A stretch of 38,794 nt of DNA from Ruminococcus sp. (GTDB lineage: Bacteria; Bacillota; Clostridia; Oscillospirales; Ruminococcaceae). Below the pieces are notes generated by a model, which saw only the letters and a program-made list of their open reading frames with translations, did no database searches and was not told the DNA's origin. The position numbers were made by a program, and so were the translations under genes. Within the stretch, counting starts at the first letter, position 1. The number at the start of each line of letters is the position of its first letter. Where the stretch lies: the NCBI GenBank assembly GCA_017960805.1, contig JAGCYM010000112.1:1-38794 (forward strand), given 5' to 3'. This document shows positions 1,365-36,207 of this stretch, one piece after another.

Positions 1365-4300
1365 ATGAAATTGAAGAGATTCTTAGCGGCAGGTACTGCT
1401 ATGTTTGCAGTCAGCGCAATAGTGCCAACTCCGTTAATGCAGAAGTGCATTTCGATGGTATTTGCTGACGAAGAACTTACGTACGGTGATTTTATCTACC
1501 GAATTAACAAAGGAGCAGAGTATAATCTTGAAACAGGAAATTACGAAACCCGTGAATATATTCGTGTTTTCGGGCTTTCATCTTCGGCAAAGGGTGATAT
1601 TGTTATTCCTGACGAGATAGAGGGTCAGAAGGTTGAAGCTGTTGACTTCAGTGGCCTTTTCAACGGCAGGGACGATATTACTTCGGTGACATTTCCCAAA
1701 TATCTCACAGCTGCAGATGGATACTATGATATTCCAGAAAAGTGTGAGATAAAGATACCCGAGGGATGCGAGAATTTTTCTGTTGATGGTAATTTCCTTA
1801 TGCAGAACAATGCATCATACTATGATTACAGCGCAGGAAAAACTCAAAAGGGAAAATCCATACTTAGAGCACTTGGACCTCTTTCAGGGGAGGTTACTGT
1901 TCCTGAGGGCGTTGTCAAACTGGATGATGTTTTCAGAGGAAACTATGATATTACAGCTATCAATTTGCCTTCAACTGTAGGTTATATTGAATGGTATTTT
2001 TGTGAGAATATGCCCGCACTTAAAGCAATTAACGTTTCGGAGAACAATCCAACATATTTTTCATATAACGGTGCACTCGGTAAAAAATACGTTTCTGATG
2101 ATTGGGAATGGGATGAGGAAAAGAATGATTATGTGCGTTCAGGAGAAAGAATAGAGAAGGCCATTCTTGCTGTTCCTGAAGGATATGAAGGCGATTTTGT
2201 CGTTGAAGACGGGGTTGCTCTGACAATTTCAGGTGCAAGTTTTGAGAATGTGTCAAAAGTTACTTCTGTTAAGCTTGGTAAGGATACAATCTTTAACTGT
2301 AATGGATTTACAGGATGTACTTCACTTAAAGATATTGAAATCAATGGCGCAGTTTATTCAGTAAGCGGTATAGAAAAATGGCGTGGCTGGTCTTATGATA
2401 ATGAAAGTGGTCAATATAAGGAAAATGATGAAATTGACAGCTTTGATATGACAGCTGCGATGTTTGGTGATACCAAGTGGTATAAGGAGCATCCTGATGG
2501 TGTACTGTACTGCGGTGCTACTATTATAGGCTATAAGGGTACCCCCAAAAGCGATAAAATAGATGTTAAGGAAGGAACAAGAACTATTGTCGACAAGGCA
2601 TTCAATGGTCTTGAGATAGGAGAGGTAAATGTTCCTGCTACCGTTGAATATATTGGTGCGTATGCACTTGACTGTCCTACGCTCACTGCTGTCAACATTG
2701 ATGCGGACAACCCATATTACACATCTGATAAGGGTGTTGTTTATGATAAGAGCATGACCATGATGAAACTGTATCCACAGGCTAAGGCTGACTCTACATA
2801 TAAAGTTCCGGATGGGGTGCAGATAATTGCTGCAAATGCATGTGACGGCAACAAGTTACTCAAGCATATTGATTTACCAGATTCAATTAGTCTGATTTAT
2901 GGCTTTGGTGAAGGTGGTGGTGCATTCAAGAACTGCACAGGACTTGAAGATTTTGTACTGCCGAATGGTATTGATAGTTTTGATACAGGAGCAATATACA
3001 ACTGTAATCTGAAAGCTTTAGATCTGTCAGAAACAGTGAAGACATTCTCAGATGGTGGTGATCATGAAGAAATCAAGTGTTCGTTTGATTATCTTGTTTT
3101 CAGAAATCCTCAATGTGAGATAAAGGGAATGAAGAACTGTACTATCGTAGGTGTGGATGGTTCAAACGCTCAAGCATTTGCAAAGGAACACCAGATAAAC
3201 TTTATGCTTCTTGATGATTATGACAAGGCACAGTCTACAACTACTACCACAGTTACAACTACTCAGTCAACGACAACAACGACAACAACGGCTCAGCCAA
3301 CCACAACTACTACGGTAACAACGGCTCAGCCAACTACAACGACTACGGCAACAACGGCTCAGCCAACTACAACGACTACGGCAACAACAGCTCAGCCAAC
3401 TACAACGACTACGGCAACAACAGCTCAGCCAACTACAACGACTACGGCAACAACAGCTCAACCAACTACAACAACTACGACAATAACAGCTCAGCCTACA
3501 ACTTCTACAGCAATTGTTTCGACGACAGCACCAAACGGAGGTGAAAGCGGAACTATCCCAGTAAGTACAACGGTTTCCGCAAGCACTACTGAGCCAGTGA
3601 CAACGACACAACCGGCAAATGCTGATGAGCCCAATATGTCAACATTTTTTGGTAGCTGGATCTCATACAAACAATCTAACAAGGGAATCCCTAGTGATAT
3701 TCCTGAACAAGATGCCATGCAGCTTGTTATTGTAAAAGATCATACTGGAAGAATAGAAAAGAATGACCTTTCATGGAGCGCCGCAAGTGTTACGAAAATG
3801 TCAATAACAGCTGATGGCGATACAGCAGATCTTGCATTTGATGGAACAGATCTAATCCTCTATGTATCTGAGGGAAAGGCAGTATATTTCAAACATGGTG
3901 AGAAACCTGTCGAATTTGGTGATCCTAATGATGATAAGAAGATTGATGCAAATGATGCTTCTTTTGTCCTTATACAGTACGCAAAGATGTCAGTAGGTGG
4001 TGAATCAGCTCTTACTGATGCAGAAAAAGCTGCAGCAGACATCAATAAGGATGGCAAGATAGATTCAAAGGATGCTTCTGTAGTTCTTGCATTCTATTCA
4101 TACCTTTCGACCGGCGGCAAAGGAAAGATTGATGGCTTCCTTCTTATTGAAGATGCAAATGTTATTCTTAAAAATCTCGATAATATAGACAAGTTTGGTA
4201 CTGGTGTTGGTGACATAAAGCTAGACACGAATACCACGAAGAAAAACGACTCACAAACATTTGCTAAAGTAACTGACAGTAGATATACCACAGTTGCTGA

Positions 4301-4706: not shown

Positions 4707-6011
4707 CTATTCGAAAAAGATAATGAATTCCATTTCTGAGGTTTCTTCTATTCGTCTTGCATATACACTTCCGCCTAGAGCTTTGGTGATTTCATGTACA
4801 GCGTATAGACCTATTCCACTTCCCTCTTTAGTAGAAGCATTTGAGCCACGCCAGTAGCTCCTGAACACATAAGGAAGTTCGCTTTCAGGTAGAAGTTCTC
4901 CTTTATTGCGCACCGAAATAGAAAAACTATCATCTTGTTTCATCAGCTTAACTGTAATTCCATTACCATTTCCATATTTCAGAGCATTTTCAAGGAGCTG
5001 ACTAATGGCACGGTACAGAGCGTATTTATCGCTTTTCATTAATGGTTTCCCTATACATTCAACTTTGAACGGAATGTGGAGCAACTTCATTCTGTCCGTG
5101 TATTCATTTTTCAAGAGATCAGCTAGTTCATCAAGGTAAAACGAACAAATATCAATATCATATCCATCAAATGATGCATACGAAGCAGACATTAATTCTT
5201 CAGCAAGCAATTGGATCTTTTCTGCGTTTTTATCTATTTTATCGGCTATGTCTGAGGCCATTGGAGAATTGGAATATAGTCCAGTGCGAACGGCATCAGT
5301 ATAGAGCCGTATATTTGCAACGGGAGTTTTTACGCCATGAGCAATTGATGTTACTAGTTTCTGGCGTTCGCCCTCGAGAATGTGTATTCGTCGGCTGTTT
5401 GAAGCCAGAACATCCGAAAGCATATTCATCCCCCATATGTATTTTCCAAAGTAGCGGTTTTTACTTTCGGGGAGTTTTTGAATATCTTTAAGTTTTGCGA
5501 GCCTTTCGGGGTACTCAGAGAGCTTTCTGAATGGCATTATGATTTTGATGTATGTACCTGAGATAAATATTACGACTAATATGAAGCAGATACATAAAAC
5601 AGCATTTACACATAGCCTAAGTAAAATAGAGGGAGTATCTGAGAATTGATATTCTATGAGTCCAACAAGATCTCCGTTTTTGTTATATAAACTGCATAAT
5701 GCACATCTCTCATTTGCAGCTTTGAAAAATCTTGAATTGTTGTCAGAATTAATTGGTATGAATAAAATGGAAATAGGAGCTTTTTCTCCGTATGTATCTT
5801 TCCATAATTCTTGATTTTCAGTGATCGTTTTATCAGGTGTTTCATCACTGTTGACATAGTTTTCGGTAATAATGTGATTTATCCTGTTTGCAACGGTGTT
5901 TATATCAATATTCCGCCTTTGAGACATTTTGGTAAAGAGAATATTGAAGCATGATATTACAGCAATAAAGAGTACAGTTGCAACAATCAAAATACGAACA
6001 ATCTTTTTCAT
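4707..6011 (-). CDS. Sensor histidine kinase (two-component system 1)
   Basis: A 434-residue membrane kinase. TM1 is residues about 4-22, an external loop about 25-130, TM2 about 133-158. The H-box is SIAHGVKTP with phospho-acceptor His225, the N-box is LLENALKYG (Asn342), and the ATP lid is GSGIGLYAV near 398-405. The G1 box reads RNKG, with Asn where Asp is usual. The chosen ATG (6011-6009) overlaps the regulator's TGA stop (6010-6008) as ATGA, implying translational coupling; an in-frame start 11 codons upstream lies inside the regulator gene. It is the last gene of a five-gene operon with an FtsX-type ABC transporter. Bce/Vra-like systems sense cell-envelope stress this way; the actual signal is unknown. 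Confidence 0.93.
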   Translation of the reverse strand: MKKIVRILIVATVLFIAVISCFNILFTKMSQRRNIDINTVANRINHIITENYVNSDETPDKTITENQELWKDTYGEKAPISILFIPINSDNNSRFFKAANERCALCSLYNKNGDLVGLIEYQFSDTPSILLRLCVNAVLCICFILVVIFISGTYIKIIMPFRKLSEYPERLAKLKDIQKLPESKNRYFGKYIWGMNMLSDVLASNSRRIHILEGERQKLVTSIAHGVKTPVANIRLYTDAVRTGLYSNSPMASDIADKIDKNAEKIQLLAEELMSASYASFDGYDIDICSFYLDELADLLKNEYTDRMKLLHIPFKVECIGKPLMKSDKYALYRAISQLLENALKYGNGNGITVKLMKQDDSFSISVRNKGELLPESELPYVFRSYWRGSNASTKEGSGIGLYAVHEITKALGGSVYARRIEETSEMEFIIFFE

Positions 6012-22372: not shown

Positions 22373-22404
22373 AAAGAAAAAATGCCGCAGTTTCTGCAGC
22401 ATTT
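22373..22404 (-). terminator. Terminator of the HTH-cupin-acyl-CoA synthetase gene
   Basis: On the minus strand AAATGC-T-GCAG, an AAA loop, and CTGC-G-GCATTT form an 11-bp stem followed by TTTTTTCTTT. It begins 21 bases after the stop at 22425. A textbook intrinsic terminator. Confidence 0.9.
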
Positions 22405-22424: not shown

Positions 22425-24761
22425 TTATTTCTGATATTTTGTCTTGTCCATTTCACGGATTGCAGCACGGCGTATTTTTCCGCTTCCGACAGTTTTGGGA
22501 AGTTCATCAATGAATTCAACAACACGTGGGTACTTGTATGGTGCGGTGCGACTCTTCACATATTCCTTGATTTCTTTAACAAGTTCATCAGAACCAGTGG
22601 TGCCTTTTGTAAGGACAATAGTTGCTTTAACTACCTGTCCGCGAATCTCATCAGGAACGCCTGTAACAGCACATTCAAGAACGTATGGAAGTTCCATAAG
22701 TACGCTTTCGATTTCGAATGGGCCGATGCGGTATCCGGATGATTTGATTACATCATCGACTCTTCCTACATACCAGAAGTATCCATCTTCATCGACCCAA
22801 GCTGTATCTCCGGTGTGATAGAAGCCTTCACGCCATGTTTCGGCAGTGTTTTCTTCATCACCGTAATAGCAAAGAGCCAGCCCGGGTACACCTTCATCTT
22901 TGAGTTTTATACAGATCTCACCGGTTTCTCCGACTCCGGCTGGAGTGCCATCAGGCAAAAGGACCTGAACATCATATTGAGGATTGGGTTTGCCCATGCT
23001 TCCGGGTTTGGGTTCCATTCCGACTACGTTTGCGATTGAGAGTGTTGTTTCTGTCTGTCCAAATCCTTCCATCAGCTTTATACCTGTTGCCTTATAGAAC
23101 TGATGGAATACTTCTGGATTTAGAGCTTCACCTGCAATGCAGGCGTATTTCAGTGATGAAAGATCATATTTTGAAATGTCTTCCTTTATAAAGAAACGAT
23201 ACATTGTAGGCGGAGCGCAGAATGATGTAACATTGTATTTTTTGAACATCGGAAGAATATCATCTGCGTGGAATCTTTCAAAATCATATACGAATATTGC
23301 TGCTTCACACATCCATTGACCATAGAGTTTTCCCCAGAGGGCTTTCCCCCATCCGGTATCCGAAATTGTGAAATGAAGACCGTTTGGATCAGCGTTTTGC
23401 CAGTAACGAGCTGTTACATAGTGACCTAGTGGGTACTGATAGCTGTGGAGAACAAGTTTGGGATTACCTGATGTTCCGGAACTGAAGAATATGAGCATGG
23501 GGTCTGTTCCACAAGGAGTATCAGCTGTGCGTTCAAAGTGGGTACTGTATGCGGGTAGTTCTGCATTGAAATCATGCCAGCCATCGCGCTGACCGTTTAC
23601 TATTATTTTAGTTTTCATTGAAGGAGATACTTTGCATGCTTTATCAACTTCATCAGCAACATCTCCGTCTGAAGTGCAGACAATAGCAGAAACTTCCGCA
23701 GAATTGAAACGATATTCTAGGTCATGTTCCTTTAGCATGTTCGATGCAGGGATAACAAGAGCACCGATGCGGTGAAGTGCAATAATTGAAAACCAGAACT
23801 GATAATGACGTTTCAGAATGAGCATTACACGGTCACCTTTTTTGATTCCGAGTGACTTGAAGTAATTTGCTGTCTGGCAGGAATAGCGTTTGATATCCTT
23901 GAAAGTGAAGCGACGCTCATTGTGATCAACATCAACATAGATCATTGCGGTTTTATCTGGACATTTTTCAGCCATAGCATCGACGATGTCAAAAGCAAAG
24001 TTGAATTTGTCCTGGTTCTCGAAATGAACTGCACTGAGAATTCCTTCTTCAGAAGTTTCACATTTAACAAACTTTTCTGAGATGGGATGAAGCAGTCCGG
24101 CTTTGTCAACGTTGGTGAGATGGTGTTCCGCAACATGCTCGCGGTATTCTGACATACCTGAAGTTCCATGAGGTGCCATTACAAAAGCATAGATCTCGCA
24201 GTCTTCTCCACCTAATGCGACTTCATCGTGAGGCATGGAACTATCATAATAGATACTATCACCTTCGTGCAGGATCTCAGTATGAGATCCGACTGTCATA
24301 CGAAGAGTACCTTTGAGAACAATGTCCATTTCCTGACCTGCGTGACTAGCCATATGGAGAGGTTCAGAAAGAGCGTCTTCTGAATAAGGGATTACTACAT
24401 GGAAAGGTTCAACAGTTTTATTTTTGAACTTTGAAGCTAGACGATTGTACGCAAAACCTTTTCTGCGGACAATTGGAACGCCTTCACCTTTTCTTGTAAC
24501 TGTGTAGCCGCTTAGCTCAGGGCTGCTGCCTTCCATAAGATCAGTTATCTCAACATGAAAAGCGTTTGCACACTTATACACAAATGTAAAGCTGAAGTCA
24601 AGTTCGCCGGATTCAAGTTTTTTATAGTCTTCAATTGAATGGTCAGTGATTTTAGCCATTTCTTCAATGGAAATGCCCAAGTCTTCACGTAGACGAGAGA
24701 TTCTTTCAGCGACCTCTTTGATTCTTTCTTCTGCATTCTGTACATTAGACTTTTCGCTCAT
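22425..24761 (-). CDS. HTH-cupin-AMP-forming acyl-CoA synthetase fusion
   Basis: A 778-residue three-part protein. Residues about 12-75 are an XRE helix-turn-helix (SRLREDLGISIEEMAKITDH). Residues about 118-200 are a small cupin (HMASHAGQEMDIVLKGTLRM, EGDSIYYDSSMPH). Residues about 235-775 are an ANL ligase with FFSSGTSGNPK, GFGQTETT, YHTGDTAWVDEDGYFWYVGR and the catalytic Lys in GSGKIRR. The enzyme should adenylate a carboxylic acid and form its CoA thioester; HTH plus cupin suggests ligand-dependent DNA binding. The substrate (medium-chain, branched or aryl acid) is not decided. The ATG at 24761 has AAGGAG upstream; an in-frame extension to 24857 runs through the T-box terminator and is rejected. 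Single-gene operon controlled by a T-box leader. Confidence 0.93.
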   Translation of the reverse strand: MSEKSNVQNAEERIKEVAERISRLREDLGISIEEMAKITDHSIEDYKKLESGELDFSFTFVYKCANAFHVEITDLMEGSSPELSGYTVTRKGEGVPIVRRKGFAYNRLASKFKNKTVEPFHVVIPYSEDALSEPLHMASHAGQEMDIVLKGTLRMTVGSHTEILHEGDSIYYDSSMPHDEVALGGEDCEIYAFVMAPHGTSGMSEYREHVAEHHLTNVDKAGLLHPISEKFVKCETSEEGILSAVHFENQDKFNFAFDIVDAMAEKCPDKTAMIYVDVDHNERRFTFKDIKRYSCQTANYFKSLGIKKGDRVMLILKRHYQFWFSIIALHRIGALVIPASNMLKEHDLEYRFNSAEVSAIVCTSDGDVADEVDKACKVSPSMKTKIIVNGQRDGWHDFNAELPAYSTHFERTADTPCGTDPMLIFFSSGTSGNPKLVLHSYQYPLGHYVTARYWQNADPNGLHFTISDTGWGKALWGKLYGQWMCEAAIFVYDFERFHADDILPMFKKYNVTSFCAPPTMYRFFIKEDISKYDLSSLKYACIAGEALNPEVFHQFYKATGIKLMEGFGQTETTLSIANVVGMEPKPGSMGKPNPQYDVQVLLPDGTPAGVGETGEICIKLKDEGVPGLALCYYGDEENTAETWREGFYHTGDTAWVDEDGYFWYVGRVDDVIKSSGYRIGPFEIESVLMELPYVLECAVTGVPDEIRGQVVKATIVLTKGTTGSDELVKEIKEYVKSRTAPYKYPRVVEFIDELPKTVGSGKIRRAAIREMDKTKYQK

Positions 24762-24782
24762 GATAACTTCTCCTTTTTTAAA

Positions 24783-25056
24783 AAATAAAAAACTCGCCTC
24801 AAAGAATAAGATCTTTGAGACGAGTAACATTTCATGTTTACCCGCGGTACCACTCAAATTGTGCCGCTATTGCGTAACACCACTTCAGACTCTAACAAGC
24901 CCTATTCATTATCGCAGAATCACGGGACTGCTTACTAGTAACTTTCAGCACTCCAGCTCAGAAGGGATACATAGTTTTGCATGACACCGACTTACACCAA
25001 ACGCCGGCTCTCTGAAGACATTGACAATACTCTGCTTGGCTTCCTCATAGCTTATG
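24783..25056 (-). promoter_or_regulatory. T-box leader (tRNA-sensing riboswitch)
   Basis: On the minus strand the leader starts near 25056. It shows a kink-turn-like base (AGCTATGAGGAAG pairing with CTTCTGAGCT), the AGAGAG bulge and GGTGTAAG distal loop of Stem I (about 25012-24985), an AGTAA box near 24936, and the invariant T-box TGGTACCGCGGG at 24852-24841. A terminator follows: ACTCGTCTCAAAG (24825-24813) pairs with CTTTGAGGCGAGT (24804-24792), then a T-run. UGGU in the T-box bulge fits a tRNA with discriminator A. Spacing from the Stem I base makes UAU (Tyr) the best specifier guess, with AUG or GUA in neighbouring registers. Uncharged tRNA would favour read-through into the synthetase gene. 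Confidence 0.92.
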
Positions 25057-25062
25057 TTTTGG

Positions 25063-25091
25063 ATTATAGCACATGAAAATTCATTTGTCAA
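25063..25091 (-). promoter_or_regulatory. Perfect consensus promoter of the T-box transcript
   Basis: TTGACA (25091-25086), 17 bases, TATAAT (25068-25063) on the minus strand. With a promoter this strong, control is expected at the leader terminator rather than at initiation. Confidence 0.92.
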
Positions 25092-26323: not shown

Positions 26324-28081
26324 ATGGATAGAATGATTATTATTGATGAACTAAAGCGTAAGAATGAAATACTACCTAATGAATTTGACGGAACATACCG
26401 CTCAGTACGTAAAGCGGTTGAGTATTATGCCAAATTGAGAAGAATTGAGATAATTGATTTTCACGATTTAGAGTTACTATATTACTTAGCACTTGGGAAC
26501 TGGACAGACAATAAGATTGAGAGCAAGCAATATATTAAGAAAAGTCATTTGCTTCATAATGATAAACTCTTGCTAGAAACTACTGTCGACAGAATATGGA
26601 GTGATGACTCGAAAAAACTGTTTAGTCATACAGTCGGAAAAAAGGAAATGGAGTTTCTGGCAGAAACTCCGATGTTTGAATTCACAACATTTGGTGAAAA
26701 ATCCGAACCAATCCAGGCTTTTTTCAAATTGTGCATTAATCTTTCCGGACTTGAAATAGACAGTAAACTTTATGATACAGTTCAGCAGATGTTCGATTTG
26801 CAAATCAAGAATTCTGGGATTCCAGTATATGTCTTGTCGAGAATCCTTCACTGCTTGAAACCATTTACATTCCCAATTCTTGGGCAGAATGAAATTGATT
26901 CTCTGGTTTTTAAATCATTGGGAATTGGCGTTGAAAAAACAGAGGAGATTTCTCAATATATTCCAAATTGTCGTGTTATTCTGGATTTTCGTGAGACAAA
27001 TTTCAAATTCAAAAACATGAGAGTTTTTGACGTGTTGTCATGGGAATTAATCGATGCTAAGAATGAAACAGAATCATCAGAAGCTCCATTAACTGAACAT
27101 CAGCGCAGAAGGTTTGAGGCTCCTCTTAATCAGATCCTATACGGACCGCCTGGTACAGGTAAAACGTATAATGTTGTGAAATATGCAGTTGAATTAATAG
27201 AAGGTGAAAAAATAGCTGAAGGAGAGAGCTATTCTTCTATTAAAGAAAGATATGCAAAGTATGTCGCATTAGGGCATATCAAATTCACAACGTTCCATCA
27301 ATCATTGAGTTATGAGGAGTTTGTTGAAGGTATCAGGCCTGTTGTAGTTGATAAATATGGAAACGATACTAATATTGCCCACGCAGATACTACTGTTATT
27401 TATCGTCCGTATAACGGCGTTTTTAAGTCATTATGCGAGAAGGCTACAAAGAGCCCTAATATGAACTTTGTAGCTATTATGGACGAGATAAACAGAGGAA
27501 ATATATCAAGAATATTTGGTGAGCTGATCACTCTAATTGAGGAATCAAAACGCGGTTCTTCTGTAATATTACCATATTCGCAGACAGAGTTCTCAGTACC
27601 GTCAAATCTATATATTCTTGGTACTATGAATACAGCTGACAGATCTATTGCAATGCTTGATACTGCACTCAGAAGACGATTTGATTTTATTGAAATGATG
27701 CCAATACCCTCTCTGCTCGGAGACTGTGATGGAGTAAATCTCTGTGAACTTCTTACGGCACTTAATGAACGAATTGAGTATTATTATGACAGAGAGCATG
27801 CAATTGGTCATGCGTATTTCATGAACAGCAACGGGTGTATCAAAACAATCAATGAACTTAGAGAAGTATTCTCTACTAAGATAATCCCGCTTCTGCAGGA
27901 ATACTTCTTTGATGATTATGAAAGAATCAAACTTGTTCTAAACGATGACAATGCTTTTGTAGAATGTATAAAACCGAAATACATCAAGCATTTTGATTCA
28001 GGGCAAAAGCTATACAGATTAGGAAATCCTATGAACTGGAGTAAGGAACACTTTATAAGAATTTATAAAGACATTTCCTGA
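26324..28081 (+). CDS. mcrB: McrB-like AAA+ GTPase of a modification-dependent restriction system
   Basis: A 585-residue protein. Residues 1-255 are a non-catalytic N-terminal region, where McrB homologues carry the DNA-recognition domain; I do not recognise its subtype. Residues about 268-580 are the McrB motor with Walker A YGPPGTGKTYN, Walker B VAIMDEINRGN, the McrB signature MNTADRSI and the arginine-finger region ALRRRFDF. McrB translocates DNA using GTP and activates the McrC nuclease. The ribosome binding site is modest (AAAGG, 11 bases before the ATG at 26324). mcrC follows after 15 bases. Confidence 0.9.
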   Translation: MDRMIIIDELKRKNEILPNEFDGTYRSVRKAVEYYAKLRRIEIIDFHDLELLYYLALGNWTDNKIESKQYIKKSHLLHNDKLLLETTVDRIWSDDSKKLFSHTVGKKEMEFLAETPMFEFTTFGEKSEPIQAFFKLCINLSGLEIDSKLYDTVQQMFDLQIKNSGIPVYVLSRILHCLKPFTFPILGQNEIDSLVFKSLGIGVEKTEEISQYIPNCRVILDFRETNFKFKNMRVFDVLSWELIDAKNETESSEAPLTEHQRRRFEAPLNQILYGPPGTGKTYNVVKYAVELIEGEKIAEGESYSSIKERYAKYVALGHIKFTTFHQSLSYEEFVEGIRPVVVDKYGNDTNIAHADTTVIYRPYNGVFKSLCEKATKSPNMNFVAIMDEINRGNISRIFGELITLIEESKRGSSVILPYSQTEFSVPSNLYILGTMNTADRSIAMLDTALRRRFDFIEMMPIPSLLGDCDGVNLCELLTALNERIEYYYDREHAIGHAYFMNSNGCIKTINELREVFSTKIIPLLQEYFFDDYERIKLVLNDDNAFVECIKPKYIKHFDSGQKLYRLGNPMNWSKEHFIRIYKDIS

Positions 28082-28096
28082 TGAACGGAGATAATA

Positions 28097-28897
28097 ATGT
28101 ACACGAGACACTTTTGCGTATCGGCTAATGAGATGATAGCAGAGATCTCACGTGAGAATGAAAAGCTATCCGAAATGCTTGGAGATTTTGCTGAGGCATG
28201 TGCTGCTGATGGCAGGAATGCTATTATGGTAAAAAAGAATAACGGAAAGAAGTGTTTTGTTGCCGGTACATATTGTGGTTTTGCTTTTCTTGTTGACGGA
28301 ACACTTATTGAGATTCTACCGGAGGGAGAACGTTTAACTGCAAGGAAAGAACTTTGTACGGAGTTTTCAAGGAGATGCGGGATTACATTCAATCCTTCAG
28401 GCTTTGATTCCGATACTAATTTTATGGAATACTACATTTCTGTATTTGCAGAAGAAACGATGAAGATAATAAAAAGCGGAGTTCTTTCTACATATGCGAG
28501 TCGCGAGGAAAATATGAACAAGGTACATGGTACGATCCTGTTTTCAGAGAATATACGTCGTAATCTTGTTCACCGAGAACGCATATATGTTAGGCATGAT
28601 GTCTTTACTTCTGATCGTTCAGAGAATCGTATTATTAAAGCAGCAGCTTCAAAGCTGGTAAAAATAACTGATAATTCACATAGTTCACACCTCCTTAAGG
28701 AAGCATTGTCTTTCTTAGATGAGGTAAGAGTTCCTTATGATATAGCTGCAGAGTTTTCTAAATGCATAAACACACGTAATACAAAGAAATACAGCACCAT
28801 TCTTAATATATGTAGGATGCTTCTGGATAAGAATGAGGGAATTGCTTTTTCAGGAAAATACATTTCGTGTGCTCAGTTTTTCTGTAATAATGAATAA
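28097..28897 (+). CDS. mcrC: McrC-like protein lacking the nuclease domain
   Basis: The 266-residue product matches the N-terminal, McrB-contacting half of McrC: GTYCGFAFLVDGTLIEILPEG, HGTILFSENIRRN and the SDRSENRIIKAAA segment. In full-length McrC (typically 350-450 residues) a PD-(D/E)XK nuclease with an LKPDI core follows. Here the frame stops at 28897 right after SGKYISCAQFF, and the next gene's ribosome binding site begins 17 bases later, leaving no room for a remnant. CGGAG lies six bases before the ATG at 28097. The system may be a decayed restriction unit or may use another nuclease. Confidence 0.82.
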   Translation: MYTRHFCVSANEMIAEISRENEKLSEMLGDFAEACAADGRNAIMVKKNNGKKCFVAGTYCGFAFLVDGTLIEILPEGERLTARKELCTEFSRRCGITFNPSGFDSDTNFMEYYISVFAEETMKIIKSGVLSTYASREENMNKVHGTILFSENIRRNLVHRERIYVRHDVFTSDRSENRIIKAAASKLVKITDNSHSSHLLKEALSFLDEVRVPYDIAAEFSKCINTRNTKKYSTILNICRMLLDKNEGIAFSGKYISCAQFFCNNE

Positions 28898-33639: not shown

Positions 33640-35265
33640 TTAGTGCTGGTGCCTTCCATGGCCTTTTTCTGCGATGCTGTTTGGATTTGTGTATTCTATT
33701 CCTAAAGCATTTGCAACAGCTTCCTTAATTCCATTGCTGCTGAAAGTTGCACCGCTAACAGCATCAACATCAATATTCTGAGACCCAAGTATTTCTGTAA
33801 TTATTTGTTTTTGGGCACGATTGAAAAAATTGTCGTCATCTTGATATGATGTGATAGTGATATCATTTATCTCACCGTTTTTAACCGTCACAGTAACATT
33901 TGTAGCTCCACGGAATCCTGTTCCTGTTCCGGTATATACGCCGTCGGTGTATAAGCTTGTACTGCTTAAAGTTGTTTTCTCTTGATTAACGTTTTCAGTG
34001 CTCTTAACTGATTCTGTAACAGTTTGAGTAGTCGGTTCAGACTCCGTTGAAGTGGTTTGTTTTACCTTGTTTTCTGTCTGTTTGGTTGTGGTTTCCGAAG
34101 TTGCATTAGATGGCATCACATTATTCAGGGCATTTTTAATCGCTTCAATAAGGCCGTTACTACTGAATGTGGCACCGCTAACAGCATCAACATCAGTACT
34201 TTGTGTTCTAATTACTGATGATATGATAACACTTTCAGCCTGACTGAAAAACTCTTTATCGTCTTTAAAAGAGTCGACAGTTATTTCTGAAATAATACCA
34301 TTTTTTACTGTAACCGTGACATTTGTATTTCCTCGGAAGCCAGTTCCTGTTCCAGTGTATTGACCGTCCTTGTATGTTATCTTTTCCACATCTGTTGTTA
34401 TTATATTATTAGATTCATTGTTTGAATTTGTGGAGGAATAGTCTGATATAACTCCTGCATAAAACAAACCTGCGATTGCAGTAACTGCTAGTGTTCCTGA
34501 TATAGCAGGAAGAGTATCCGCTGTCATGTTTCCATTCAGACAGATTTCTGTGCATTTCATGCAATTGATACATTCTCCTGATGATATTTCGTCATACTTA
34601 TAAATCGGAATAGACATAGTGCACTTTGAAGTACATAGTTTACAGTTTCCGCATTTTCCATTCTGACGCTTGATTGGGAAAAGCCTTGTTCTTGAAATCA
34701 GAGAGAAAATCGCTCCGAGAGGGCACAGGTATTTGCAGAAGAATCTTTCTATGAGTAGTGAGCCTATTATTATGAGAAGGAGAAACAGACCGCCAAGAGA
34801 AACCAAATATTGAATATTGTTCCAGGTACTTGGGGATGAATAAATTCCGAATACTGTCCAAGGGCTCCATATAACGTCTCCGGTTAATGAAAAGCCCCAG
34901 ACAACTATAGCGATAAGAATAAGCACAACATATTTTATGTACTTTAGTATTTTATCAGTTTTTTCCGGAATTTTCGCTTTAAATGGGATAAGTTTTCCAA
35001 TAGTATATAGAAGATCCTGCATTGCTCCGAATGAGCAAATAAACCCGCAGAAGAAACGACCAAAAAGTAGAGTAGCCAAGAAGACTCCTAGAACCAGGGT
35101 TATTCTTCCAAGGTTTTCTGTTAAGACGAATGTTCTATTTATAATTGATGAGAATAAATATCCGATTGAAGAAAAGATAGATATAAACAGAGCAGGGACA
35201 AATATAAAGGAAATAAGCTGAATAATTGATCGTAATATCTGAATAGGCGATGCTTTTTTCTTCAT
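33640..35265 (-). CDS. NosR/NapH-like 4Fe-4S membrane protein with two FMN-binding domains
   Basis: A 541-residue electron-transfer protein. Several TMs in residues 1-265 include FCGFICSFGAMQD and FFCKYLCPLGAIF, the paired Cys-rich loops of the NapH/NosR family. Two ferredoxin motifs follow: CGNCKLCTSKC and CINCMKCTEIC (each CX2CX2CX3C). After a last TM come two FMN_bind domains (about 300-385 and 445-525), each with DGxYTGTGTGFRG and the flavinylation motif DAVSGATFSS. A Ser/Thr/Glu linker joins them and the tail is His-rich (GHGRHQH). ApbE should attach FMN to the motif Thr. It probably passes electrons from the membrane to external acceptors. The ATG at 35265 has AGGAGG nine bases upstream; an earlier ATG abuts that site. 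Confidence 0.93.
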   Translation of the reverse strand: MKKKASPIQILRSIIQLISFIFVPALFISIFSSIGYLFSSIINRTFVLTENLGRITLVLGVFLATLLFGRFFCGFICSFGAMQDLLYTIGKLIPFKAKIPEKTDKILKYIKYVVLILIAIVVWGFSLTGDVIWSPWTVFGIYSSPSTWNNIQYLVSLGGLFLLLIIIGSLLIERFFCKYLCPLGAIFSLISRTRLFPIKRQNGKCGNCKLCTSKCTMSIPIYKYDEISSGECINCMKCTEICLNGNMTADTLPAISGTLAVTAIAGLFYAGVISDYSSTNSNNESNNIITTDVEKITYKDGQYTGTGTGFRGNTNVTVTVKNGIISEITVDSFKDDKEFFSQAESVIISSVIRTQSTDVDAVSGATFSSNGLIEAIKNALNNVMPSNATSETTTKQTENKVKQTTSTESEPTTQTVTESVKSTENVNQEKTTLSSTSLYTDGVYTGTGTGFRGATNVTVTVKNGEINDITITSYQDDDNFFNRAQKQIITEILGSQNIDVDAVSGATFSSNGIKEAVANALGIEYTNPNSIAEKGHGRHQH

Positions 35266-35283
35266 ATTATCCATCCTCCTTTC

Positions 35284-36207
35284 TCATTTAGCAGCTATGA
35301 TTTCGTTCTTTATTTTTTTTGTCGCATATATTTCCTGTTTGTCAGTTATGAAAATAGCGTCTATATTTCGTATCTTCAGTAACTTCAGGCTATTATCTGC
35401 ACCAATTATGAAGGCTGAGGTTGCAAGAGCATCAAGCTCTTCTGCATTATTTCCTATGAGGGTTACTGCTATCAGACCAGAATTTGCTGGATACCCTGTT
35501 CGAATATCCGTGATGTGATGAATAAGGTTGTTATCGATAATCCGGAACTGCTCATAAATACCTGATGTGACAACAGATTTGCCGTCTGTGATTTTTATGG
35601 ATGCGTATGTCTTCCCATTTGAGGCAAATGGCTTTTGTAGGCCAATTTTGCGTGCTGGGCCGATATTAATGATTGTTCCTCCGAAATTAATTACTGCGTT
35701 TCTTACTCCGTATGATAGTAGCAGCTTTCGTACTTCATCTGCAGCATATCCTTTTGCAATTGCTCCTAGATCAAGTTGCTGATCTTTTTTTCTCAGCATT
35801 ATGGTTCGATTTTCGTTGTCAAATATTATATTTTTGTAATCGATAAGTTCCTTTGCCTGAGATATTTGCATGGAATCTGGATTTTCGCCGCATTTCATGG
35901 CTTGTTTCCATAATTGCGAAAGCGGACGTGAAGTTATGTCAAAGTATCCGTCAGTAAATTCAGAATACATAACTGAATGTTTGATAATCCTGAAAGTATC
36001 TTTTGAGACTTTCACTGGCGATATACCAGCATTTTTGTTGATATTGCATATTTCACTGTCATGTGCATATGCTGATAGTTTGCAGTCGAGTTCTTTCACC
36101 CGGTCTTTTGCGGCTGATAGAGCTTCTTCCGCATCTTCAAAAACTGTAATAGAATTGACTGTTCCCATTCCAAAGAACACTTTTTTAGTCTGAATATTAC
36201 TTGCCAT
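35284..36207 (-). CDS. apbE: FAD:protein FMN transferase (ApbE)
   Basis: A 307-residue ApbE that transfers FMN from FAD to Thr in FMN_bind domains. Family motifs: GMGTVNSITVF, SDxEICNIN-type loop, LDLGAIAKGYAAD, NFGGTI, VVTSGIYEQF, HHITDIRTGYPA and the metal-ligand region LDALATSAFIIG. GGTI and GIY replace the common GGD and GDY. There is no signal peptide, lipobox or TM, which is odd because its presumed targets lie outside the membrane. AAGGAG precedes the ATG at 36207. It ends 18 bases before the start codon of its likely substrate gene. Confidence 0.92.
   Translation of the reverse strand: MASNIQTKKVFFGMGTVNSITVFEDAEEALSAAKDRVKELDCKLSAYAHDSEICNINKNAGISPVKVSKDTFRIIKHSVMYSEFTDGYFDITSRPLSQLWKQAMKCGENPDSMQISQAKELIDYKNIIFDNENRTIMLRKKDQQLDLGAIAKGYAADEVRKLLLSYGVRNAVINFGGTIINIGPARKIGLQKPFASNGKTYASIKITDGKSVVTSGIYEQFRIIDNNLIHHITDIRTGYPANSGLIAVTLIGNNAEELDALATSAFIIGADNSLKLLKIRNIDAIFITDKQEIYATKKIKNEIIAAK

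Follow-up and report, generated by a model that had tools for sequence, protein, structure and literature searches.

Introduction

Isoleucine-class T-box RNAs, such as that on ileS (Rfam family RF00230), have a Stem I, an AUC specifier, a UGGUACCGCGG antiterminator and a terminator, and stand before a gene. The leader described here has all of these in common with them and differs in its target: where others control ileS, ilv or transporter genes, this one precedes an acyl-coenzyme A (acyl-CoA) ligase, in a protein that also carries helix-turn-helix (HTH) and cupin domains. It lies on the minus strand of a 38,794-nucleotide stretch of DNA (positions 1 to 38,794 of contig JAGCYM010000112.1, assembly GCA_017960805.1, Ruminococcus sp.), referred to as the window, which comes from a Ruminococcus-like genome bin (G000; 114 contigs with 2.57 Mb in total, 64% complete). 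In a protein similarity search the nearest relatives of the gene belong to Ruminococcus flavefaciens and other Ruminococcus, mostly of rumen origin.

The closest solved chain to the ligase is 3etc (665 bits; next distinct sequence 372; phmmer against the PDB), which we take to be MacsMa, the acyl-CoA synthetase of Methanosarcina acetivorans. The two have in common the ligase domains (residues 245-774 of the window protein) and a tryptophan and a glycine of the acyl pocket, while the match does not extend to residues 1-244, which hold the HTH-cupin part. The closest NCBIfam model, MbcS (NF047394), spans residues 253-776 only. A further related system is the IorAB and PaaK pathway, in which an acid is converted to its acyl-CoA and then, by ferredoxin-driven carboxylation, to a 2-oxoacid. 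The pathway proposed below would follow the same acid/acyl-CoA/2-oxoacid scheme; IorAB and PaaK-type assimilation differs in concerning aryl acids, in the family of its ligase and in its separate locus in the genus. In one near-complete genus genome iorA is clustered with genes for an IorB-like protein and a PaaK-like ligase (536 bits, cut-off 646) at L128:4557-9744, likely an aryl-acid assimilation locus.

Cellulose-digesting ruminococci need branched-chain volatile acids, and 2-methylbutyrate is one CO2 short of the 2-oxoacid of isoleucine. In rumen fermentation 2-methylbutyrate is described as an isoleucine precursor (PMC7356843, citing Robinson and Allison 1969), and isoacids as a nutrient factor for fibre-degrading rumen bacteria that is added to ruminant diets (PMC10311502). 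In their available parts, the main texts of the T-box surveys examined do not mention acyl-CoA, and a Geobacter genome paper places a T-box on leuA only; no report of a T-box on an acyl-CoA ligase was found in the full-text literature, the coverage of which leaves out most subscription journals. The new part here is the target class, an acyl-CoA ligase, the RNA itself being an ordinary isoleucine T-box.

The T-box leader and its pairing with the ligase gene

The minus strand of the window aligns from 25057 to 24813 with all of the RF00230 model (positions 1-219 of 219, E 2.3e-23), the single match above the gathering score in the whole window, and the stretch 24870-24770 folds with a z of -4.8 against shuffles. 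The leader thus shows the features of the class, namely a covariance score over the whole model, the T-box sequence, a competing terminator and a specifier for one amino acid. The initial annotation, made from the letters alone, had described a complete T-box leader behind a perfect promoter, and both descriptions are borne out by the covariance score and the promoter matches (Table 1). The Rfam cut-off is strict here, given that the gathering score is exceeded by 5 of 11 sampled relatives of this T-box and missed by the other 6, and that three of five control T-boxes from the same genome, at 81-90 bits, also fall below it.

To place the T-box and the fusion in other genomes, as had been proposed with the first description, we used the best 80 of at least 590 protein-similarity matches (60-93% identity of the best segment) and took as T-box motif GTGGTACC(G/A)CG within 450 bases upstream. 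Of these 80 loci 62, from Oscillospiraceae, Lachnospiraceae and others, have the motif ahead of the fusion gene. It is not found within that distance in the other 18, three of which (L045, L049, L050) have less than 500 bases of upstream DNA, and 16 of which fall in one mostly T-box-free clade of 17 members that includes 63% paralogs of Ruminococcus. An Rfam search of fetched stretches likewise gave no T-box at the 63% full-length paralog L120, the 52% ligase-only paralog L121 or the 45% paralog L122. No neighbour gene is widely shared: when the 757 open reading frames (ORFs) of the 80 loci were clustered, the two commonest other clusters occurred in 8 loci each, one of them, downstream of T-box members, with weak ACT and metallo-beta-lactamase matches.

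Two further loci were observed along the way. An isoleucine T-box of 108 bits (L052:5644-5889) precedes a gene of the paralog clade that otherwise has no T-box, which may reflect an exchange between paralogs. A second isoleucine (AUC) T-box of the window's own genome (L131:1-246, contig G000:C16; 115 bits) lies at a contig end with its gene missing, and is likely another copy of the pair.

The specifier codon

The initial annotation had left the specifier codon unfixed, with tyrosine as its best guess for the sensed amino acid. The specifier columns of the Rfam alignment read AUC; a C comes next, and after it CUUC, one strand of the helix beneath the specifier loop. In the window sequence UAU is a possible second reading, shifted 5' by one base. 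The relatives decide between the two. Among the 62 with a T-box motif, 59 are readable (L015 and L053 are cut by a contig end, L017 is without the specifier stretch), and all 59 have ATC, preceded by T in 46, C in 12 and A in 1, and followed by A in 31, C in 25, G in 2 and T in 1. The helix that sets the register is GAAG/CTTC in 49, GAGG/CCTC in 7, which fall in one clade, GGAG/CTTC in 1, GAGG/CCCC in 1 and cut off in 1, and the compensatory change between the first two forms fixes the register. The specifier is therefore AUC, isoleucine, and the tyrosine reading is rejected.

The same columns give the correct codon in all five same-genome controls: tyrS (UAC), leuA (CUC), a trpB-like gene (UGG), cysS (UGC) and pheS (UUC). 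These are the T-boxes, out of eight further matches in the genome, that precede a product naming an amino acid; the other three have the gene lost at a contig end (L002), small ORFs (L004) or a ligase gene (L006) behind them. In 30 more genus loci, part of which overlap in species with the 80-locus set, all 30 have the motif, and each of the 28 with a readable specifier has ATC. At L102 the loose motif pattern also matches a second, chance place.

As separate observations, the T-box of an R. flavefaciens bin (RUG13777; L017, about 3560-3860, and L118) has a Stem I that lacks the specifier stretch, by assembly error or decay, and the T-box at L004:1501-1706, before small ORFs of unknown kind, reads ACC (threonine) by eye.

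The ligase and its likely substrate

2-Methylbutyrate is described as the preferred acyl substrate of MacsMa, many other acids being adenylated without transfer to CoA, and Trp259 of MacsMa as replacing the pocket tryptophan of acetyl-CoA synthetase, a position that is glycine in MacsMa (PMC10455477). Two residues of the window ligase match this pattern, G568 and W454, the latter aligned with position 260 of the 3etc chain, which we take as Trp259. Both residues occur in 28 of 28 aligned family rows, four of them (L028, L033, L042, L060) without a T-box motif. An isoleucine specifier, together with MbcS and 3etc/MacsMa as the nearest named ligases, points to a branched short-chain acid, most likely 2-methylbutyrate in the first place, and not to an aryl acid. 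The earlier idea of a link between the acid that is activated and the amino acid that is sensed thus fits the isoleucine and MacsMa evidence; of its two specific guesses, tyrosine does not stand and an aryl acid is very unlikely.

Isoleucine pathway genes in carrier genomes

We surveyed 40 genomes of the genus, the window's own and 39 of at least 90% completeness, and defined a close ortholog by at least 89% identity. Close orthologs occur in 20 of the 40, all with a T-box reading ATC. IlvA scores over its cut-off in 1 of these 20 carriers vs 18 of the 20 genomes without a close ortholog (Fisher p 6e-8, kinship ignored). If the carriers are taken to include G013 and G065, with their 72-73% orthologs, the counts become 3 of 22 vs 16 of 18 (p 3e-6). 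IlvC and IlvD are each missing in 15 of 20 carriers vs 1 of 20 others, and both are gone from 15 of 20 carriers; partial sub-cut-off IlvD matches in G016 and G039 were scored as present and 20-24-bit IlvC matches as absent, and G023 has a partial IlvC over the cut-off. IlvC and IlvD are kept in G023, G031, G039 and G057, where IlvA is missing. No genus genome (0 of 40) has a citramalate synthase over the cut-off.

IorA exceeds its cut-off in 39 of the 40 genomes and ilvE_II in 38; for ilvE_II, G039 has a partial match and G005 has no match. A VorB-class alpha subunit of the window's own genome scores 538 against a cut-off of 399, its beta- and gamma-like neighbours lying under theirs. Carriers therefore tend, as judged from profile matches, to lack the standard isoleucine route except for its last step and to hold candidate reductive carboxylases. 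This loss, with IlvE and the candidate carboxylases kept, fits the needs of isoleucine synthesis from 2-methylbutyrate.

A similar picture is seen in the 47 T-box genomes outside the genus clade (those left after removal of L052, L053 and 13 members of the Ruminococcus ortholog clade from the 62 T-box loci), where IlvA is over the cut-off in 5, IlvD in 6 (any match in 10) and IorA in 42. The 6 of 47 for IlvD compares with 49 of 97 in the order background, composed of the window's own genome and others of at least 90% completeness (Fisher p 8e-6, kinship ignored).

Proposed role and alternatives

We propose, with a probability of roughly 70%, that isoleucine starvation turns on the activation of 2-methylbutyrate, from which isoleucine is then made by reductive carboxylation. 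We observe a T-box with an AUC specifier, kept together with a ligase of known family, and the loss of the standard isoleucine route in many carriers; from these we infer which acid the ligase uses, which carboxylase acts and that the flux runs this way. By analogy with the T-box family, accumulated uncharged tRNA-Ile would bind the leader at two places, the anticodon at AUC and the free 3' end at UGGU, so that the antiterminator forms and the ligase is made. At the expense of ATP the ligase would form 2-methylbutyryl-CoA from 2-methylbutyrate and CoA, a 2-oxoacid:ferredoxin oxidoreductase would convert this thioester and CO2 to 3-methyl-2-oxovalerate, and IlvE would aminate the latter to isoleucine, so that recharged tRNA-Ile would close the leader again. 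The HTH-cupin part probably provides a second control, of its own gene or of others, that answers a cupin ligand, a guess from the domain make-up.

If this is true, a gene and a switch can be assigned to the branched-chain acid need of fibre-digesting rumen bacteria. The ligase gene would be a candidate for the entry step from 2-methylbutyrate in these bacteria, the switch would tie this entry to isoleucine supply, and the lack of IlvA, IlvC and IlvD in many carriers would give a genomic reason for the need. A physiological finding of the 1960s would thereby become testable gene by gene, and acyl-CoA ligases would be added to the T-box target classes.

Several observations weigh against the proposal. 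With the MbcS model the ligase scores 457.2 bits against a cut-off of 850, and is thus not a member by that model. The 52% ligase-only paralog also has a YWH motif and GFGQTE, and a pocket tryptophan and glycine common to T-box-free paralogs mark the family and not the substrate of the T-box group alone. No 2-methylbutyryl-CoA oxidoreductase gene was found beside the ligase in the ORF clustering of the 80 loci. The absences among the 47 outside genomes may partly be missing sequence, and the window's own genome, which counts among the 20 carriers, is 64% complete. IlvA and a T-box ligase occur together in G044 (6% contamination) and in G013 and G065, the T-boxes of which score 100.8 and 97.9 bits, and G010 and G024 are without both IlvA and the ligase gene. 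On a kinship tree built from IlvE and IorA of 39 genomes (G005 left out), IlvA changes 3 times and the ligase gene 6 times, with the 72-73% orthologs counted; 6 independent pairs differ in the gene, and 1 or 2 of them differ in IlvA, in the expected direction (p 0.5-1). The co-occurrence of the gene with IlvA loss is thus mostly the history of one clade, and the case for the pathway draws on the set of enzymes in these genomes, not on co-loss repeated in independent lineages.

The alternative that survives best, although we consider it unlikely, is that the product of the ligase, 2-methylbutyryl-CoA or a similar branched acyl-CoA, serves as a primer of branched membrane lipids, the T-box reporting a shortage of isoleucine-derived primer. 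MbcS of Staphylococcus has a role in supplying the primer for branched membrane lipids, and it is the MbcS model that comes closest to the ligase, under its cut-off. On the other side, the Ruminococcus carriers are mostly without the usual isoleucine route, so that isoleucine itself needs a source. Odd-chain iso acids, moreover, derive from isovalerate or leucine and not from 2-methylbutyrate. R. flavefaciens is described as rich in these acids (PMC6941105). Lipid priming and isoleucine synthesis are not exclusive, and both can hold.

A quite improbable alternative is the activation of propionate, followed by reductive carboxylation to 2-oxobutyrate and the normal isoleucine route. Propionate is abundant in the rumen, and IlvC and IlvD would be required, the lack of which in 15 of the 20 close-ortholog genomes speaks against this route there. 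MacsMa is able to adenylate propionate, but on such less favoured acids it is described as forming and releasing the adenylate and not the CoA ester (PMC10455477).

That the T-box is the leftover of a lost gene, with no working link to the fusion, was the doubt raised with the first description. T-boxes are known to duplicate and move between genes (PMC2494555), but the pair has been kept in 62 of 80 loci at the identities given above, and we regard this explanation as very improbable. A tyrosine T-box before a ligase of hydroxyphenylacetate or a similar aryl acid has almost no chance of being right: UAU is readable in the window sequence and the iorA, iorB-like and PaaK-like cluster found elsewhere in a genus genome would suit aryl acids, but in relatives the base before AUC varies (T, C, A) and AUC does not, the compensatory helix fixes the register, the Rfam columns give AUC, and the ligase is closest to 3etc and not to aryl-CoA ligases.

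As a tentative and rather doubtful extension of the 2-methylbutyrate proposal, gut and rumen Clostridia may have a T-box regulon for isoacid salvage, in which each scarce branched-chain amino acid would induce its own CoA ligase, the HTH-cupin ligase for isoleucine (2-methylbutyrate) and a TIM-barrel ligase for leucine (isovalerate; T-box CUC in the same genome), reductive carboxylation would replace the lost Ilv pathway, and the HTH-cupin part would make the isoleucine ligase a gene-controlling trigger enzyme. At the locus of this second ligase (L139:2908-5888, contig G000:C60) a T-box at 5638-5888 (93.8 bits), the specifier columns of which read CUC (leucine), stands before the gene of an 842-residue protein that joins a xylose-isomerase-like TIM barrel to an AMP-forming acyl-CoA ligase; a relative in G006 (L134) has no T-box within the 601 bases searched around its start. 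This single instance is a hint that further acid ligases may be under T-box control, and isovalerate as its substrate is a guess.

Layout of the locus and other genes of the window

The coordinates are collected in Table 1. All four domains of the fusion (HTH_19, Cupin_2, AMP-binding and AMP-binding_C) exceed their Pfam cut-offs, and its start is most likely the ATG at 24761 behind AGGAG, rather than the TTG of the longest ORF. The hairpin beyond the gene, together with the 321 bases that separate it from the next ORF of the same strand (a GGDEF protein), makes the gene look monocistronic, which agrees with the initial description of a T-box followed by this fusion alone.

Table 1 Features of the T-box and ligase locus, in window coordinates
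Feature	Position	Strand	Evidence
Sigma-70 type promoter TTGACA-17-TATAAT, extended -10 (TG before -10)	25063-25091	minus	12/12 matches
T-box leader RNA, Stem I to antiterminator	24813-25057	minus	RF00230, 108.9 bits, gathering 93
Specifier codon AUC (isoleucine)	24966-24968	minus	Specifier columns of Rfam alignment; AUC in 59/59 readable relatives
Helix below specifier loop, 3' strand CUUC and 5' strand GAAG	24961-24964 and 25043-25040	minus	Compensatory change in relatives
T-box sequence TGGTACCGCGG / UGGUACCGCGG, antiterminator	24842-24852	minus	Predicted pairing with free tRNA 3' end, by family analogy
Intrinsic terminator of leader	24792-24825	minus	14 pairs, then T run
HTH-cupin-acyl-CoA ligase fusion, 778 residues	22425-24761	minus	Pfam; NCBIfam MbcS 457 bits; 3etc 665 bits
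XRE-type HTH, residues 19-78	24528-24707	minus	HTH_19, 35.9 bits, cut-off 30.2
Cupin domain, residues 133-192	24186-24365	minus	Cupin_2, 43.4 bits, cut-off 27.2
AMP-forming ligase, large domain, residues 263-619	22905-23975	minus	AMP-binding, 209.4 bits
AMP-forming ligase, C-terminal domain, residues 683-757	22491-22715	minus	AMP-binding_C, 77.7 bits
Terminator-like hairpin 3' of gene	22380-22404	minus	11 pairs and T run

Two other gene groups of the window were observed. At 26324-28897 an McrB-like AAA protein is found with a short McrC-like protein of 266 residues, which matches positions 4-207 of the 318 of the McrBC profile, so that its C-terminal part may be missing. At 33640-36207 a NapH-like ferredoxin membrane protein with RnfG/NqrC-like repeats adjoins an ApbE-like FMN transferase; all score under their NCBIfam cut-offs, and the genes are possibly a flavin-based electron transfer cluster.

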